The notes beneath the pieces are model-generated. The model did not search any database. It saw only the letters and a program-made list of their open reading frames with translations, and had not been told where the DNA came from. The position numbers and the translations under genes were made by a program. Below are positions 3,192 to 37,003 of a DNA stretch of 64,000 nt, piece after piece (position 1 is the stretch's first letter; the number at the start of each line of letters is the position of its first letter). This DNA comes from Dermatophagoides farinae (Eukaryota; Arthropoda; Arachnida; Sarcoptiformes; Pyroglyphidae), in assembly GCF_024713945.1 (NCBI RefSeq), contig NW_027461517.1, positions 1-64,000 of the forward strand, in the 5' to 3' direction.

Positions 3192-6100
3192 ATGAATTCA
3201 GGTTCTGAGTTATCAGCTGTTATTGAACGCTACATTCAAAGTGAAAGTGAAAACTCTAATGAGTTGATTAATTATCTAAACCGAATTGAATGGAATCTTG
3301 ACATTTTTATTTGTTTACTTGACTATGTTTCGAAAATAAAGCAGGTCTCGAAACTTATGCTTTTGATTAAACTCATCGAGGTAGCTACGAAAAAGTAAGT
3401 TTGTAATTTACAATATTTTTAGCTTAACTAAGCAAAGTGACGAGATTGTCCAGCGATTAAAATTATTTTTGCAAGCTAATGTTAGGTCGTTTGGGGTCAA
3501 GTTGTTTCAAATGCAAGAAACTTTATGTGATTCTTTGGTTCGCTGCTTTATTTTAGCTCTTATAGAATATATACATCGAACTAAAGATATCGCGACTTTG
3601 AAAGTTTTTTTTGAGGAACTTAAGTCTAACTCAATAGATGGTTTATTAGTAGCTTTGCTGATGTTAAAGAATTTGTCTGAAACTATTTTTCTTAACAATA
3701 GTGAAAAAGAATCTATGTTTTCGTTTAGTTTAGCAATGACTCTGGATCTACAGAATATGATCCTCCATAGTGTAATAGACGTTTTAAATCAATACTTTAT
3801 GCTTTTTTTTACCGAGCTTTCTCTGGACGTGTCCATGCAACTTTTGAAGGAAATTTTAGAAACTTTGAACTATTGCTTTGTGGATTTCAAGACATTAAAG
3901 TTTTCTAAAGATAATCACAAAAAATTTTCATATGACTACCAAGCAAAAAACATGTTCAAATCAATCGTTGAAAGCAAATTACTAACTTATTTATCTTTGT
4001 CACTTCAAAAAATTTTTCAGTATTTTTCGAAAACGTCTGAGCTAACATTTCGATGTATAAGTTTGATTTTTTCTCTTTTAGCAACTTTCACCTGTATACC
4101 AAGTAAAAGTTTTAAAGACAAGGTCATAAGAGAGAAATTTATTGTGACCATTACGAATACGGTATATTTTTTTCTCATAAATTATTTTACTGAACTTTAT
4201 GCCAGGCTTTCAACAAATAAAAGACTAGGATTTTTTGAAATTCACTATGAAAACTTTTGTCAGGAACTCAATAAATATGCAAGCTTAGGAATACATTCGA
4301 GCCTTATTTTTGAACATTTATCGAACTTCGATGTTTTTAGCAGTTTTATTAACTTTGTTCAATGCTTTTTTTATGGTATCAACATGACTGAAATACGAAC
4401 AATATTTTTTTCTCAAGAAATACTCAAGATTGACGAACTGAACTTTGATAGTAGACAAACCAATATAATAAAACTGTTTGAAGGATTAGTTCAAGCCTTA
4501 GGGTTGAGAATTTTTTCTACTGTGTTTGTTAATTCCTTTACTCATCTTCAGCAGTTATCCTATTTAGAAAAAGCAAGCTTTTTCAGAAATACTCAGTATA
4601 TGCTTGAAATAATTTCCATGCTTTACAAAAACAAAACTAATGTAGGATTTATTAAATCTTCTACGAGTCTCTCTAAATTGTTTATGGAACTTCTTTATTA
4701 CTTCACTTTCTACTTTATTTCAGCTGCGCAATTTGATACTTTTAAATTAAACAGTATTATCAATGAAATTCCCAAAAAAAGTAATAACTTGAATTTAATG
4801 ACAGATCCAGCGGTCTCTGAACGATCTGCTTCATTCAAAGAATACTTAATGTATCTTTTAAGATACAACGCTGTATTCATTCCAGATTTTTTGTTCGATG
4901 AAGATGTTTCATTTTTCGCTGAGTTAAACTCCGAAAAAATCGATTCTGGAATAAATGACATAACTTTCTGCTTATTTCCGCTCACTTCAATTCTTGTGTC
5001 TAAATTTATTATCGATCTTTGGGATGTTTTGATTTTTCAAGAAGAATTCAATCGAACTAATTCGACCGTTATCAAACATTATTCAATGAACGGAATCTTT
5101 TTGCTTAACACATGTTTTTTTTCAAGCTGCAATTCAAAACTTATTTTCAGCTTTAATTCAATGGTTTTACTCAAAGTTTCACATTTAGAACTGTTCCCTA
5201 AATATTTAACAAATGAATCTGATCAAATTAAACTTTCGTCGTATTTCGATCGACTGAAACTTATTTTCAAAGTTGTATTCGACGAAATGATGAAAATAAA
5301 ATCGCAATTTAGTAGATTATCGGCTACTGAAGTTTCGGCAGATAAAGATAATATTCGCTTCTCCACTACAATTTATTTAGATGTAGTTCGTAATTTGTCA
5401 TTTGCTATGGAACTTAATAACTTTTTCAATTCGAATCAATCTATAGGCGACACTTTTTTGCAGCAGTTCATTCGCTTTATTATTCTACTGTACTTTAAGT
5501 CTTTTACTCATGAATTCACTCGCAATAATTTAGAAAGTTTAAAGGATACATTGAATTATTGTTTAATTTCCGCAAATAACCAAAGAAATAGTATATTATC
5601 TCTTATTCAAAATGATTTGAGCACTGAATTACTTAAATCCGGTATCTTGAATACGATTAAAGATATTGACCCAAAAAACACTACTCTTTGTTTTTTGCCT
5701 AGTTTTGTTCCTTTTGTTATTCCAAAAATCAGTGATATGCATCAACTATCCAAGACTTGTTTATCAATATTTGCTAACGTTTATGCAAGGATGGAATCGA
5801 TTTTTAGAATGACATTTAGTTCGAAAAGTGAGACTGATATGCAAGCCGTCATCGTAAATAACAAACAGTTTATTACTGATTGTGCTTTGTTTTTAAAGAA
5901 TTTATTAAATAATGTCAAAACTCTGGAGTTGTGGAACGAAATTTTTGTTTTCTTAAAAGAAGTGTTAAATGATGGTGTTCAAAGAATAAATCTACTTTTT
6001 ACCTTTATAAATTATTTAATTCAAAGTGGAAACTACAAAACCGCTTGCGAGATTTTAAACTTTATTCTCGAGCTTCTTGTGCTTTCAAAGCGAAAACTTT

Positions 6101-29648: not shown

Positions 29649-32600
29649 ATGAGTCGCAGCAATTTATCAAAAATTTTTAATAAGTATGTCGACATAGAGG
29701 AAAAATGTGAAGTACATCCAATAAACGAGTTGATCGCAGACGTATTAGCTTGCATATCGGATGAAAAAGATTCTATTAAAACCAAATTAATGAAACTTTC
29801 TTCACAACCGTTTAAACCAAGTGACGTAAAAAAATTTGCCGCTGATTTTTGTCTGTTGCTGGATGAAGCTACGTTGTATTTCGCAGATCAAAACTTATTA
29901 GAGTTACTTATATATTTTAAATCTGTGTTAGCTTCGAACTTCAAGCCTTTTCAGAGCAGACTCAACAAATGGATACCTACGATGTTTTTGCTAACAGGCC
30001 GTAACGACGCTGAATTCCAAAGTGTCGTAGATGGTATACTCAACGCTCTTTATTTCAAAATACATCCAGAAGAAATTCAATTGTTGTTTCCTTTCATCAT
30101 TACTAAGTTAAAATACACTTATAAAATTATAACTACAAACAAAATCGAAGGCGAAGTAACATATGAATTAACAAATTTTTTAAATTGTTTAGGTAATGTT
30201 ATCGATTCTTCTTATTTTGCCAGCCGAGAATTGTGGAGTACCAATTCTGATTATGAGGTTCTGGTTAAAACTGTTTTTGATTATATAATTGCAGCCAAAA
30301 ACAAAAACGAGCACCTTATTATCACTTTTTGCAAATATCTTTCTCGTTCTGTTAACAGTATCGCAATTTTGGCACCGAATATTATAAACCATGCCACCAA
30401 AAACCTTCTCTTCCTCAGGCCTCATTACACTATAGATGACGTTTATGGAATATCAATTTTGCTGAAAACTGACAACGAAGTTCTCAAAGAGAAAATCGTA
30501 CAAGGACATAAAACCATTTTAAACAAATTGATCGATCTGATTCACAATTACAAAACTGACTTTTGCATTTACAGAGTCGAAGAAACTGTGGATCTACTAG
30601 TATATTTTTATTCACACTTCAATTTTTCACTAGATTGGAACATGATAATAAAGAGATTATCTAATTTGTACCCTTCCACGTACATTCACGACATTAAATA
30701 CCTCTGGAAATGCTTACTAAAGTTAATGGATGTTTTAGTTGACGATCGACCTACGTTTAACAAGTTTGTCACGTATTTTATTTCTTTTGTTGGCCATCAG
30801 AAACCAGCTTACGAAATAACAGCAACTTCTTCAATCATAATAAAAAGTTCTACCATGGTTTTTGGTTCGCTGGAAAGTTTGCTAGATTTTTTGTTTTATC
30901 GTATTGACAACGAATTCTTAATTATGTACTTTGCAAAAGTTGAACCTAGTATCGTTAATATTGATTTTGTGAAAGATATTGAATCAGTTTACCAATCGAT
31001 TGCGGGAACAGGCGATAATAAAATTAACTTAAACTGCATGGTTTCTGGCTGAACTTATTTGTTACGTTTTAAATAAAATGGAAAAAAAAGATCAAGATAC
31101 CGCTCTGAATAATGCTCTCTTTATGATAAATAAATTAGAACTCAAAAACTTAATTGTTTTTATCTACAGCACCAGAAAGTCTTTTGTTTCTAAAATTTTG
31201 TTGAATAATGATAAGATTAAAACATTTACTAACTTAGAACGCTTTAATAATTTAAGCTGTCAATTAATGGTTGAGATATTTACTTACGTCGCTGAAGAAA
31301 ATTCATATTTCCAGACGGCTGCGAAACATTTTGTCAATGATAGATTAAGCAAAAATGATTTTTTCGACGATGTTAGATTCCATCTGTTCCGATTCGAAAA
31401 ATGCAGATTTAATTTCGAATCCAAAAGTCGCTGAGTTATTATTTTTAACAAACTAGATTTAGAAGATATTTTGGAATTGTTGGCTTTTGAACAATGTTCG
31501 CCGCCGATCCACAAAAATTACTACTGCATGGCTAACCAATTGCTTGATAATTTTTTCAAATTCAACTTGTAAAGGTGAATTCCAGAAAATATATCGAAAC
31601 TGTTGCTTTATTTAAAAAGTATTCGGGTAAATTTGGTTCTGGATACGATCAGTTACGCAAATCTGTTATAGATCCGTTGGTCAGTAGACCAAAATTTGTT
31701 GCTTAATGATGTTATTGAGTCTGACTTGATTTTCGACGAGTCAATATTGAAGTCGCTTTTGTCACATATAACCAAACCGATTATGATATTAACGATAAAT
31801 ACACCAAAAAGTTTTCTTTTGCAAAAACGCTTAACGGTTTAAGTGAAGAGTACAATTTAGAATCAATCACCGACTTTTTTATTTGTCACAGTCAGCAACT
31901 AAACTTGACTGAAAACTGTTAAATTTATTAATTGTCATCTAATTAGCGAAAAGTCAAAACAACGATAAAATTCCTTTCCTTGTTTACGTAGTTCATGCTC
32001 GCACGAACTTACTTATTTTGCATTTTAAAGTCCTCCAGCTTGTCAGTGAAAACAACTGATCAAGATTGTCAAAAAACAAACCAGCCATACAAAACGACAC
32101 GTTATCAAATCTAATTAACAATTTTAGAACAGTTTTCCAATTCCATCAAACATAAAGCAGCAGTTGATCTTTCAACTTTTAAGAATCAGTTAGTTATTTT
32201 TTTTCCGATTCAAATTAAAACCTTTAAACAACTCAGATTTTGACTTTTTAATAATGAACGTTTTGGCCAGCTATCTCAATCAGCAGAAACGTTATGTGGC
32301 TACTCAAGACGCTCAGGAAGTTGTATTTGCTGTTGTCGAATTTCTATTCAATGCATTCCGACAGCATGTCCTTATCAGAACGTGTTAATTCAGTCATCAC
32401 ACAAAGTTAGTAGTAACTACGGAACTAGCTCACATATCGCTCGACTCGATTATTTACTCTTGTGTTTCACTTATTTTTCTCAACTAACAGATGACACAGA
32501 TGATTGTGGTGAAGAGTCATCACTAGTTTCACTCTTCTCCCAACCTTCTTTTAGAGTTTCCATACAGGGACTTGACAATTTCGCATCTTTCTCCTTTCGT

Positions 32601-33562
32601 AGATTCCAAAACTAATGTATACAGCAGATCCCTTAATAAATCTCACGTTGCATTCTCTTTTTAATACGTCCAGTGATATGTGTGAATATTTTTTCAAACG
32701 CTACTGAGCTAAATTTTCATCGAAGACTTATTTAATAAACAATGTCGACCAAAGCTTGATTTCTTACATAAAACTTCTCTGACTCAGAATCCCCTGTGTA
32801 CAAGTACGTTAAATACTGTATACAAAACGGCTCAAGTGTAATCAATTTTTCTCACTACGTCGTTTCCCGGCCTTGTAATAGAAATATGCAAACAAATAAC
32901 AGTTAACCACGCTACTCTAGATAGAATTTATTCTCAATTTGTGACCACGTTATTTAAATCTCTCGAACAGTTTGCCACTTATTCATTATTCGTTATTTCC
33001 GTCAAAAAAAGTTTCTTCTTCAGGAAAGTTTGAAATGTTGTTTATGGTCAAAAGACAAAGATGAGCAACCTCACAAGTTTTTCTTGACTATTCAGGTTTT
33101 TCAAAAAATCTGTCGAGTTTTTTGCCACATAGATCTTTCTTTATCAGGTTCTCTTTTAACTCAGCTAAAAATTCAAGATTTCCAGAAGAATTTGCTCCAG
33201 CAACTCAACTCTAAAATAAATATTCAGGCAAAACGATGTTATCAAAATCTTCTTTAATCTCAAAAACCAACTATCATTTATTATTGAAAACTATCTAGAC
33301 TGCAAGAATCACTGGTAGCTCAAGTTTCCAACACTAGAGAATGTTCCATCTGTTTCTTACACAACACATAACAAGTCAGTGTTATGCAACTCTCAGTTGT
33401 GCATACTGCTACATGTTTTTTCACTCTGAATGCATTGAAAAATGGTTTAAATCTTGCAATAACACGCAATGTCCGTCTTGCCGGTCTTCATTCTATGATC
33501 AATGGCGCCCTGTTAACAAAAAAAGTTTTTGTTTAATTGTAAACTTAAAAGGATTTGTTTAA
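29649..33562 (+). pseudogene. LTN1: Frameshifted Listerin (LTN1/RKR1) E3 ligase gene
   Basis: An intact 467-residue helical N-terminal part (29649-31052) is followed by coding that jumps frame repeatedly: 31052 to the frame containing MEKKDQDTALNNALF at 31078, then LDLEDILELLAFEQCSPP near 31455, then KYIETVALFKKYSGKFGS near 31590, DVIESDLIFDES near 31705, FDFLIMNVLASYLNQQK near 32250. At the end is a RING: ECSICF (33339-33356) in one frame and CAYCYMFFHSECIEKWF then CPSCRSSFYDQW in another. That order and the final RING match Listerin, the ribosome-quality-control ligase that ubiquitinates stalled nascent chains. At least seven frame changes. Pseudogene or badly called sequence; see findings. 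Confidence 0.7.
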
Positions 33563-33706
33563 TAAAACTTAATAATCAGTAGTTAATTATTATGTGTCTA
33601 AATTATTCATGATAAAATAAAATCGAAAAATCCGATCGGAAAATAATTCCGTTTTTTCTTGGCTAAACTAAAACGCAACTTTGTAACTCGTTTTAAATAA
33701 AAGAAT

Positions 33707-36700
33707 ATGAGTTTTATTGAATCTAAATTTAGAATTTTTCCGTTTCATTGTAATAGTTGTGAAGAAAAAAGTTAAAAAGTTCTCTCCGTGATGCTCCTGG
33801 CATTTTAGGAATTAAAACCTTCATTATTACTTAGTGAAGTTACTGTTTCACATTTAAGTTTAATAACTCACGGCGATATTGCTTGTTACCTATTAGCTTC
33901 TGATTTTTCAGTCGAACTGTTGGAATCTCAGGAACGAAAATCAGACGATCCTTACTTAAAAATAATGAAAGAAAACACCATAGAAAGTTCTTTGCAAAAC
34001 ACAAGTTTGATTGTAGTGAAAGTGAAAGCGAGCTCGATGTTGCTCAACTAGAAAAAAATTACAGAAATAGCAAAAATTATTTCTTAACTGAAAAACCTTA
34101 TTTTATTTACGTTAAAAAAAAGGAAAAGCTCGTTGAAGCCACTGAACTCCTACCTACCCAGTTAATGAAAGAACAAGAATTAGTACGATAGAATCTTTAT
34201 ATATCTTCTTTCAAAAGTGGTTTTTTTATTTATCAGTGCGCTAAAGTACGTTTTTGTTTACGTAGTTCAATCGATCAAAAACATAAAATCAATTTTTTAT
34301 TATAGTGGAGACAATGAACTGCTTAATATCGTTCATGCGATAAAAACGAAGTTTTTCCCCTAACTTAATCAAAACTACTGACTATATGTTTTTTAAAGAT
34401 GAATTAGTTATCGAATTAAAAAAAATTAATAATACACGACAACGAGCTGAAATACTCAGAAAAATTCAAGAAATCGGTTTAGAATTTTACAATTATAGTT
34501 TTGAGTTGAAAAACAGCTCATTTGTTATTGATAATGCTAAAAATCAACTTCGTAAGTCTCTTACAGAAATTATAACCAGTTTTGCTCTCGTTATTTTTTG
34601 TGTCTTCAAAAGGATACAATACATCGTGTTTTGCGTTATCAATCAAACTCATATCTCTATTTAGACTTTTGGTTTTTTCAAAAACTACTTTAGCGGCAGA
34701 ACATTTAATTAATTTGAGTAACGACCTAGTTCTTAGCGAGTTTGTTACTACAATATTCAGCACGATAGTATTATTAACTGTCACAACTTTACAACTTATC
34801 AAACTATACAGAGCTTCAAAGTCTTCAATACAATCATACGTTCCTGACAAAAATATGTATAATTTTTTTGGTTACTTGATCTTGTACATCACAAGTTGGT
34901 TCACCTATTTCAATTCTTTTTCGAGAGAAAAAATCAGTACTTACTTATTAAATTACAACGATTACGTAAAAACTGGAAATCTGACAGCTATCATTGAATC
35001 AATGCACTCTTACTATGAGTTGAGTCAATATTATATTAGGAAAGTCAATTTCAGCATTGATCAGAGGTATAACAGTTTTTCAACCATATTGCTGTTATTT
35101 ACAACGTTTAAACTAGGAGATGTGCTTTTGGCTGTTATAAAAAAGTATCAAACAGACCGGTTAGAAGGACATTTTAATAGCAAATCTAAATATCATATTG
35201 TGAACGCTTGCCATTCTCAAATCAGCAAGTTGAGTCTTGAAGAAATGAAAAATAAATTCTACAATGAGGACTCACTTTTTAGTATTTCTAACAGTGTGGT
35301 TACTGCCAAACATTATTTGACTGTGGATGATTTAGTTTGGATTAGTAATAACACAATTATACCCGCTGAATGCGAAGTCATTCTTTGCGATACAGACGCT
35401 AGAGTCGAGTACAAGGAAATAAACGGAGATATAATTAGAAATTACGTTATTTGCCAAGGAAAATTATCTGCAGGGGGCATTTTATACTGCTTTAAAGCCC
35501 GTTTTGGTTAAGATTGTATCAGAAGTTTCTGAGTCAAAATATTATCTGATGGAACAAGCGCTCTTTAATGTTATTCGAAACAACAATAACACAAAAATTT
35601 ACAACACATTAAAATTATACACAAACTATTTGAATTTTTTGATTGCGATCACAATTTCCGTCATTTTCTTTACGATAAGTTGTTACTTACTTATCAGTTC
35701 AATCACAGGCACTAGTGACACTTCTGTTACTAGGAACCATACTGACTTTTACTTTTTATTATTTAAGTTCATCAATCTAACGTTGATACTTTGCCCTTGT
35801 GCTTTAAACTTAACGCTCCCAAGTTTGTATTTGTTATTTATTATTAAAGCATACAAACGACACATAATTATTAATAATCCGTGCGTGATCGAAAAGATTC
35901 CGCAAATAAACGCTATTTATTTTGACAAGACCGGAACTTTAGATGATGGTAATATTTCAGTCTCCAACTTTGAAATCTACAAGCACACCGTAATTAACAT
36001 CACTGAAGAAGACATTCATATGATTTTGTTTTCTATTGAGCACGACGAAACCAACCCTTATGGAATCGCAATTAAAAACTTTGCTCGTAAGCACTTGAAT
36101 TCAGATAAAAACCGTCTGCCTGTTATATACAGTGAAGACGCTGTGGGTGGAAAATATGTGGAATTAGGATTAAATCAACTTCCCCAAGCTTTTTACGTAG
36201 GAAACATCACTCTTTGTCGATACTATAACTTTTCCACGGACTGTTATAACGACAGAAGTGAAAATGCTATTAGCTTATTTAATTATAAAGGACAGCCAAT
36301 AGCTATTTTTGACTTCCAAAGCGTAGTTCCAAATGATTCTATCGACGTCCTTCAAAGGTTATATATTAACTATCAATTAAATTTAATTTCAGGTTCGTCT
36401 GAGCCTTGCAATTCATCGGTAGCCAATTATTTTACAAATTTATACTATAATTTGGTCCCAAATGAAAAACAGAAATTAATAAAAGAAGAACAAGAAAGAA
36501 AAAACTCTATAGTTCTGATGATTGGAGACAGTTACAACGACGCTTACGCAATTTCACAAGCAGACGTTGGTGTAGTTTACGGCTTATCATCTTACGTTAC
36601 AACAAAAACTGCAGACGTCATTTTTGCAGCTAAATCTTTATCTTTATTGTTTGACTTGTTGAATTTAGCGCAAGCTTACTGCAACAGCACTAAGTTCACT

Positions 36701-37003
36701 ATTTTTCTCAGCATGATCTACAATATCATAGTTATCTTGCTGATTTTGACCATAAAAGAAAGTACTATGGAACTCACTTTTACCTCGAGTGCTGTTATGT
36801 TGATTTTTGGACTGACGAATTTTGTTTTATCGGAATGTGTTTTCTATTTAACTCTCTACTATAAGGATCAGTTACGAGGAAGAAGATTTATTGATCAGAA
36901 TTATAAAAGAACGTTAAAACTATTTAGTTCTTTTCAAAATTGGATTCTAAATTCAACAGAAAAAAAAAAGCATTTCACTTATACTAATATAGAGATTACG
37001 TAA
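33707..37003 (+). pseudogene. Frameshifted copper-type P1B ATPase
   Basis: The ATG at 33707 starts an N-terminal heavy-metal domain (FPFHCNSCEEK, then in another frame LRDAPGILGIKTF, then VTVSHLSLITHGDIACYLLA); two more frame changes (near 34040 and 34600-34680) lead to transmembrane helices and the actuator domain (to about 35490), where another one-base shift joins to an intact 499-residue part (35504-37003): LCPCALN (metal site), FDKTGTLDDG (phosphorylated Asp) and GDSYNDA. Copper ATPases move Cu+ into the Golgi or out of the cell. Key residues are changed: TGE reads NGD, the HP motif reads NP, GDGxND reads GDSYND, and CPCALG reads CPCALN. This suggests loss of transport. Confidence 0.75.

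Follow-up and report, generated by a model that had tools for sequence, protein, structure and literature searches.

Here we report that a patch of roughly 4.4 kb, dense in apparent frameshifts and spanning two neighbouring genes on a small contig of the Dermatophagoides farinae assembly, is very probably an assembly artefact, a segment of residual long-read consensus error in a contig foreign to the mite. Under this reading, about 4.4 kb of leftover error, chiefly small insertions and deletions, would overlie two normally intact genes. The patch itself is thus most likely ordinary, an artefact rather than biology, and the foreign contigs are the more useful by-product of the analysis.

The window, meaning the whole stretch of DNA analysed, comprises bases 1–64000 of contig C14 (482,807 bp) in a D. 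farinae assembly of 62,435,336 bp and 22 contigs. Its GC content is roughly 33%, and it is packed with eukaryotic genes on both strands, mostly single long open frames. A 28-base intron (GTAAGT...TAG) lies at positions 3395–3422, and GTAAGT-like donors recur next to model shifts in C14 loci, notably below 0.9 kb in sampled locus L017. The contig opens with degenerate CCCTAAA telomere-like repeats (1–38), and on this basis the start of C14 is probably at a chromosome end or close to one; a pattern of nearly three exact CCCTAAA repeats was absent everywhere in an assembly search.

The upstream gene of the pair is listerin-like (Table 1). Its first 467 residues match no PDB chain at E values up to 10 and just two Pfam entries, both at chance level, so that the listerin name depends on the RING finger. 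The larger piece of this domain matches Pfam zf-RING_2 (E = 9.3e-5, under the family's curated cut-off), and its top PDB matches, both weak, are the listerin chains 3j92 (E = 3.2e-4) and 8aaf (E = 7.1e-4). Read by eye in a three-frame translation, the first zinc-ligand pair (ECSIC) is out of frame with the remaining RING, and the zinc ligands are retained on either side of the frame break. No second copy was found in the assembly, either of the patch region in a DNA search or of the listerin-like gene in a search with its 5′ protein. The downstream gene, a copper P-type ATPase, changes frame repeatedly and is then open to its end. The best PDB match of its 3′ half is the copper efflux ATPase 3rfu (E = 1.1e-20), and Pfam assigns Hydrolase (E = 2.9e-8), with an E1-E2_ATPase match under the cut-off. 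The same half contains, by eye in three-frame translation, the sequences CPC and DKTGT, the membrane motif and the phosphorylation site of copper P1B ATPases. Both gene names of the original prediction therefore hold, that of listerin through a weak first match in the PDB.

Table 1 Features of the two genes and the frameshift-dense patch (window coordinates)
Feature	Position	Strand	Evidence
Listerin-like gene, intact 5′ part	29649..31040	+	Open frame, 0 inferred shifts
Listerin-like gene, frameshift-dense part	31041..33560	+	21 inferred shifts
RING finger, first zinc-ligand pair (ECSIC)	33339..33356	+	By-eye motif, three-frame translation
RING finger, remainder	33365..33559	+	Pfam zf-RING_2 and PDB listerin chains
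Copper P-type ATPase, broken 5′ half (gene begins near 33,707)	33707..35485	+	7 inferred shifts
Possible 28-base intron GTAAGT...AG	34552..34579	+	Sole + strand GTAAGT within patch; speculative
Copper P-type ATPase, intact 3′ half	35504..37003	+	CPC and DKTGT motifs, PDB, Pfam

We located frame changes with a codon-position Markov model fitted to long open frames taken from C14 but not from the patch. When forced to treat the patch as coding, the model's best path contains 28 frame changes between about 31,041 and about 35,485, near-balanced in sign (15 insertion-like and 13 deletion-like), a number that exceeds the ten or more originally predicted. The count is model-dependent. A version that allows non-coding states leaves a large share of the patch as non-coding and finds 2 patch shifts with the shift probability set to 1e-5, 3 with 1e-4 and 11 with 1e-3, and 2 to 4 shifts in the window outside the patch; a separate estimate for the listerin patch alone, with the rate fitted, gives about 47 expected shifts. 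The true number for the patch may be nearer 40, because in simulations with indels alone at 0.010 per base the model recovered a mean of 25.5 events where about 43 were expected in 4.3 kb.

The shifts are sharply confined, and their limits lie within the two genes rather than at gene boundaries. A segmented run placed 20 and 6 shifts in the broken listerin-like and ATPase parts, respectively, and none, from any of three starting frames, in the first 1.39 kb of the former or the last 1.5 kb of the latter. Density is 3–5 shifts per 500 bp across 31.0–33.5 kb, followed by 2, 3, 1 and 1, and thus changes within genes, indifferent to their borders. If 28 shifts fell evenly over the 7,201 coding bases of the two genes, the probability of all lying in the patch's 4,294 would be 5e-7, or about 1e-5 by hand arithmetic once the patch limits are treated as defined by the events themselves. 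The original prediction of a listerin gene intact to about 31,040, an ATPase intact after about 35,500, borders that ignore gene limits and codons still recognisable in between agrees with these positions and with the persistence of the codon signal and the RING ligands.

Because the 13 other window genes, which have no shifts, had been selected as long open frames, their zero is partly by construction. The free model applied to 20 further loci (drawn from C14, C15, C16, C17, C18, C19, C20 and C21) and to the window is a fairer control, although loci L010–L019 and the window were also in the training data and 4 kb of L010 falls inside the window. At its most permissive setting, this model gave 30 shifts in 133,597 coding bases over the 20 loci and 4 in 47,291 in the window outside the patch, a total of 34 in 180,888, for which the same-setting patch figure is 11. 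Among the other sampled small-contig stretches (about 217 kb modelled, window included) we found no patch of equal density; the nearest is locus L017, with 10 shifts in 10 kb, five of them adjoining donor-like motifs. Sixteen of the 34 outside shifts lie within 60 bases of GTAAG, GTACG or GTATG (two pairs share one donor, and two match GTACG alone) and may be introns; the other 18 do not, and some of these are probably model error.

The original prediction had offered shared decay of the two genes, a low-quality consensus and programmed frameshifting as possible readings. The second is best supported, and the first and third are disfavoured. Decay, in which two real pseudogenes degenerated jointly in the lineage once the need for them was lost, is unlikely. 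The deposited sequence does have broken frames, and gene loss is typical of compact parasites, but decay would be expected to affect whole genes and to bring in nonsense substitutions, neither of which is plainly visible. The 5′ part of the listerin-like gene and the 3′ part of the ATPase are free of shifts: the chance of 1,392 shift-free bases before the 21 listerin-like shifts is about 1e-4, and that of the 1.5-kb shift-free ATPase end after 7 shifts is about 0.013. The flanking control genes, chosen as long open frames, are likewise free of shifts.

We compared damage with and without substitutions in simulations of 30 runs per setting, scoring the fraction of runs with at most one close pair of opposite shifts; the observed patch has one such pair within 40 bases, near 33.77–33.81 kb, which could reflect nonsense substitutions and to that extent suits decay. 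With indels alone at 0.010 per base, 50% of runs had at most one close pair, and at the same rate 33% did so with either one or two substitutions per indel. With five substitutions per indel, the fraction fell from 27% at an indel rate of 0.005 (22 events) to 17% at 0.007 (28 events) and 10% at 0.010 (35 events); the first of these values shows that decay can reproduce the scarcity of close pairs in a minority of runs. With eight, it fell from 20% to 10% and 0% over the same three rates (24, 32 and 39 events). Event-matched decay runs thus mostly yield more close pairs than the patch, a comparison of modest power, and the result favours, by a factor of a few, indel-dominated damage with few nonsense substitutions. 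Coding log-odds were non-discriminating as a test for substitutions, being unchanged by simulated ones.

Less probable still, at long odds, is that the deposited bases are right and record a recent, local burst of small indels, for example from error-prone repair, that would have struck 4.4 kb of two housekeeping genes and spared the flanks.

Residual consensus error accounts more readily for the form of the damage. Thin long-read depth, or a segment skipped by polishing, would retain raw errors and would start and stop regardless of gene limits. Some observations count against this reading: low-rate (0.005) decay runs fit somewhat better than higher-rate ones, homopolymers are not enriched, the other sampled small-contig stretches show no comparable patch, and polishing would have had to fail over 4.4 kb of DNA that occurs once in the assembly. 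The predicted concentration of indels in A/T runs did not appear, as shifts lie no closer to homopolymers than random patch positions do, in a test weakened by uncertain shift positions; such concentration is a non-obligatory trait of PacBio subread errors.

The provenance of the contig bears on the same question. The published D. farinae assembly is described as 62.43 Mb in 21 scaffolds with an N50 of 7.12 Mb, its pseudochromosomes ranging from 9,172,953 bp down to 3,348,946 bp (PMC11074847). The deposited contigs include C1 at 9,170,000 bp, C4 at 7,117,990 bp and C10 at 3,348,946 bp, the last identical in length to the smallest pseudochromosome, as well as C22 at 14,266 bp, of which a sampled stretch resembles, by eye, animal mitochondrial nad5. 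The same source lists mitochondrial records of 14,266 bp (an earlier one) and 14,320 bp (its own) (PMC11074847). We take the deposited assembly to be this one or a deposited version of it, the two mismatches (C1 and the mitochondrial contig) being small. The reads are PacBio Sequel subreads with a mean length of 7,442 bp; FALCON, WTDBG2 and Flye assemblies were combined by Quickmerge and polished with Illumina reads by NextPolish and Pilon; and microbial contigs were filtered by BLAST against microbial RefSeq at an E value of 1e-50 (PMC11074847). A divergent eukaryote could slip past such a filter.

Two further explanations are very doubtful. One would attribute the patch to many short introns misread by the frame model as shifts. 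Short GTAAGT introns do exist in this organism, as at 3395–3422, and the donor-like motifs beside nearly half of the outside-patch shifts lend the idea some substance, but the + strand of the patch holds one GTAAGT and four motifs in total among the three kinds tested, against 28 shifts. Donor motifs are therefore too scarce for introns to be the cause, and the speculative intron in Table 1 could explain one shift. The other is also an artefact, arising through long-read dropout at GA- or TC-rich sequence of the kind known for HiFi reads, where GA-rich sequence is affected (PMC9186530). In two 500-base segments of the patch, TC/CT rises to 0.164 and 0.172, where the mean is 0.113, but 11 of the 359 other segments are equally high, so the richness is not distinctive, and the reads behind the matched assembly were PacBio Sequel subreads, HiFi going unmentioned in the available part of its report (PMC11074847).

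Programmed frameshifting or insertion–deletion RNA editing that yields full-length proteins would suit a codon signal and RING ligands that carry on past the shifts, but it is scarcely credible for 28 successive shifts in both directions and in contexts that look dissimilar by eye, when the 13 other window genes (selected as long open frames) have none and donor-less shifts elsewhere number 18 in 181 kb; we know of no nuclear system that edits in such a manner.

The sequences point to a second organism. By its uL10 gene and its codon use, C14 is a contig of a eukaryote other than the mite, probably sequenced along with the house dust mites. A uL10 gene on C14 is 44% identical to a separate uL10 on large contig C3; the C3 protein has 8q87 as its top PDB chain (447 bits) with human-type chains next, and the C14 protein has 7olc (260 bits) with yeast-type chains next, animal and fungal chains, respectively. 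The codon-use distance from C14 is 0.072 to sampled frames of C17, C19, C20 and C21 and 0.203 to sampled frames of six large contigs. For the foreign-origin check, 1.5 kb was sampled from each of C11, C12, C15, C16, C18, C19 and C21, C13 being unsampled. By log-ratio, the longest sampled frame is C14-like over mite for C11, C12 and C15–C21, weakly in C11 and C15; frames of C7, C9 and C10 are mite-like, and the mite uL10 is neutral. Contigs C11–C21, up to 3.59 Mb, thus appear to be small, gene-dense contigs of a different, fast-evolving eukaryote.

In a search for rRNA of this cobiont, the exact universal core motif turned up in the assembly at five places, all on C1, C4, C5 and C8, and a microsporidian SSU model scored 5 of 1,723 candidates, identical to these five loci. 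Pfam scans gave conserved eukaryotic families and no lineage marker. Among the matches listed from the literature on microsporidia and gregarines of mites, Dermatophagoides included, no title or abstract opening describes the organism, which does not prove it unpublished. As separate observations, C12 carries an alternative oxidase gene (sampled locus L035:227-1138; Pfam AOX, E = 2.8e-84) with C14-like codon use, and an assembly-wide search for IF-2B (eIF2B-type) reported seven matches on C2, C4 and C10 and none on C11–C21.

Genes broken by the patch risk being misread as gene loss. More usefully, the mite reference appears to include as much as about 3.59 Mb from a compact eukaryote that had gone unrecognised. 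Such sequence could distort counts of genes, the search for allergens and inferences of horizontal transfer, while contigs C11–C21 are a resource for study of the cobiont eukaryote.

Comparison with known systems places the two genes and their damage in context. The listerin-like protein resembles the listerin/Ltn1 E3 ubiquitin ligase in its C-terminal RING piece, for which listerin chains are the best, if weak, matches, and differs in a very divergent N-terminal region. The ATPase shares the CPC and DKTGT motifs with copper-transporting P1B-type ATPases, which are its top PDB matches, whereas its N-terminal half is unreadable as a single frame. Residual indel errors in long-read consensus are a known class of defect that truncates predicted proteins; the patch is like them in being indel-dominated, local and blind to gene borders with the coding signal preserved, and differs in occupying one 4.4-kb stretch without homopolymer enrichment.
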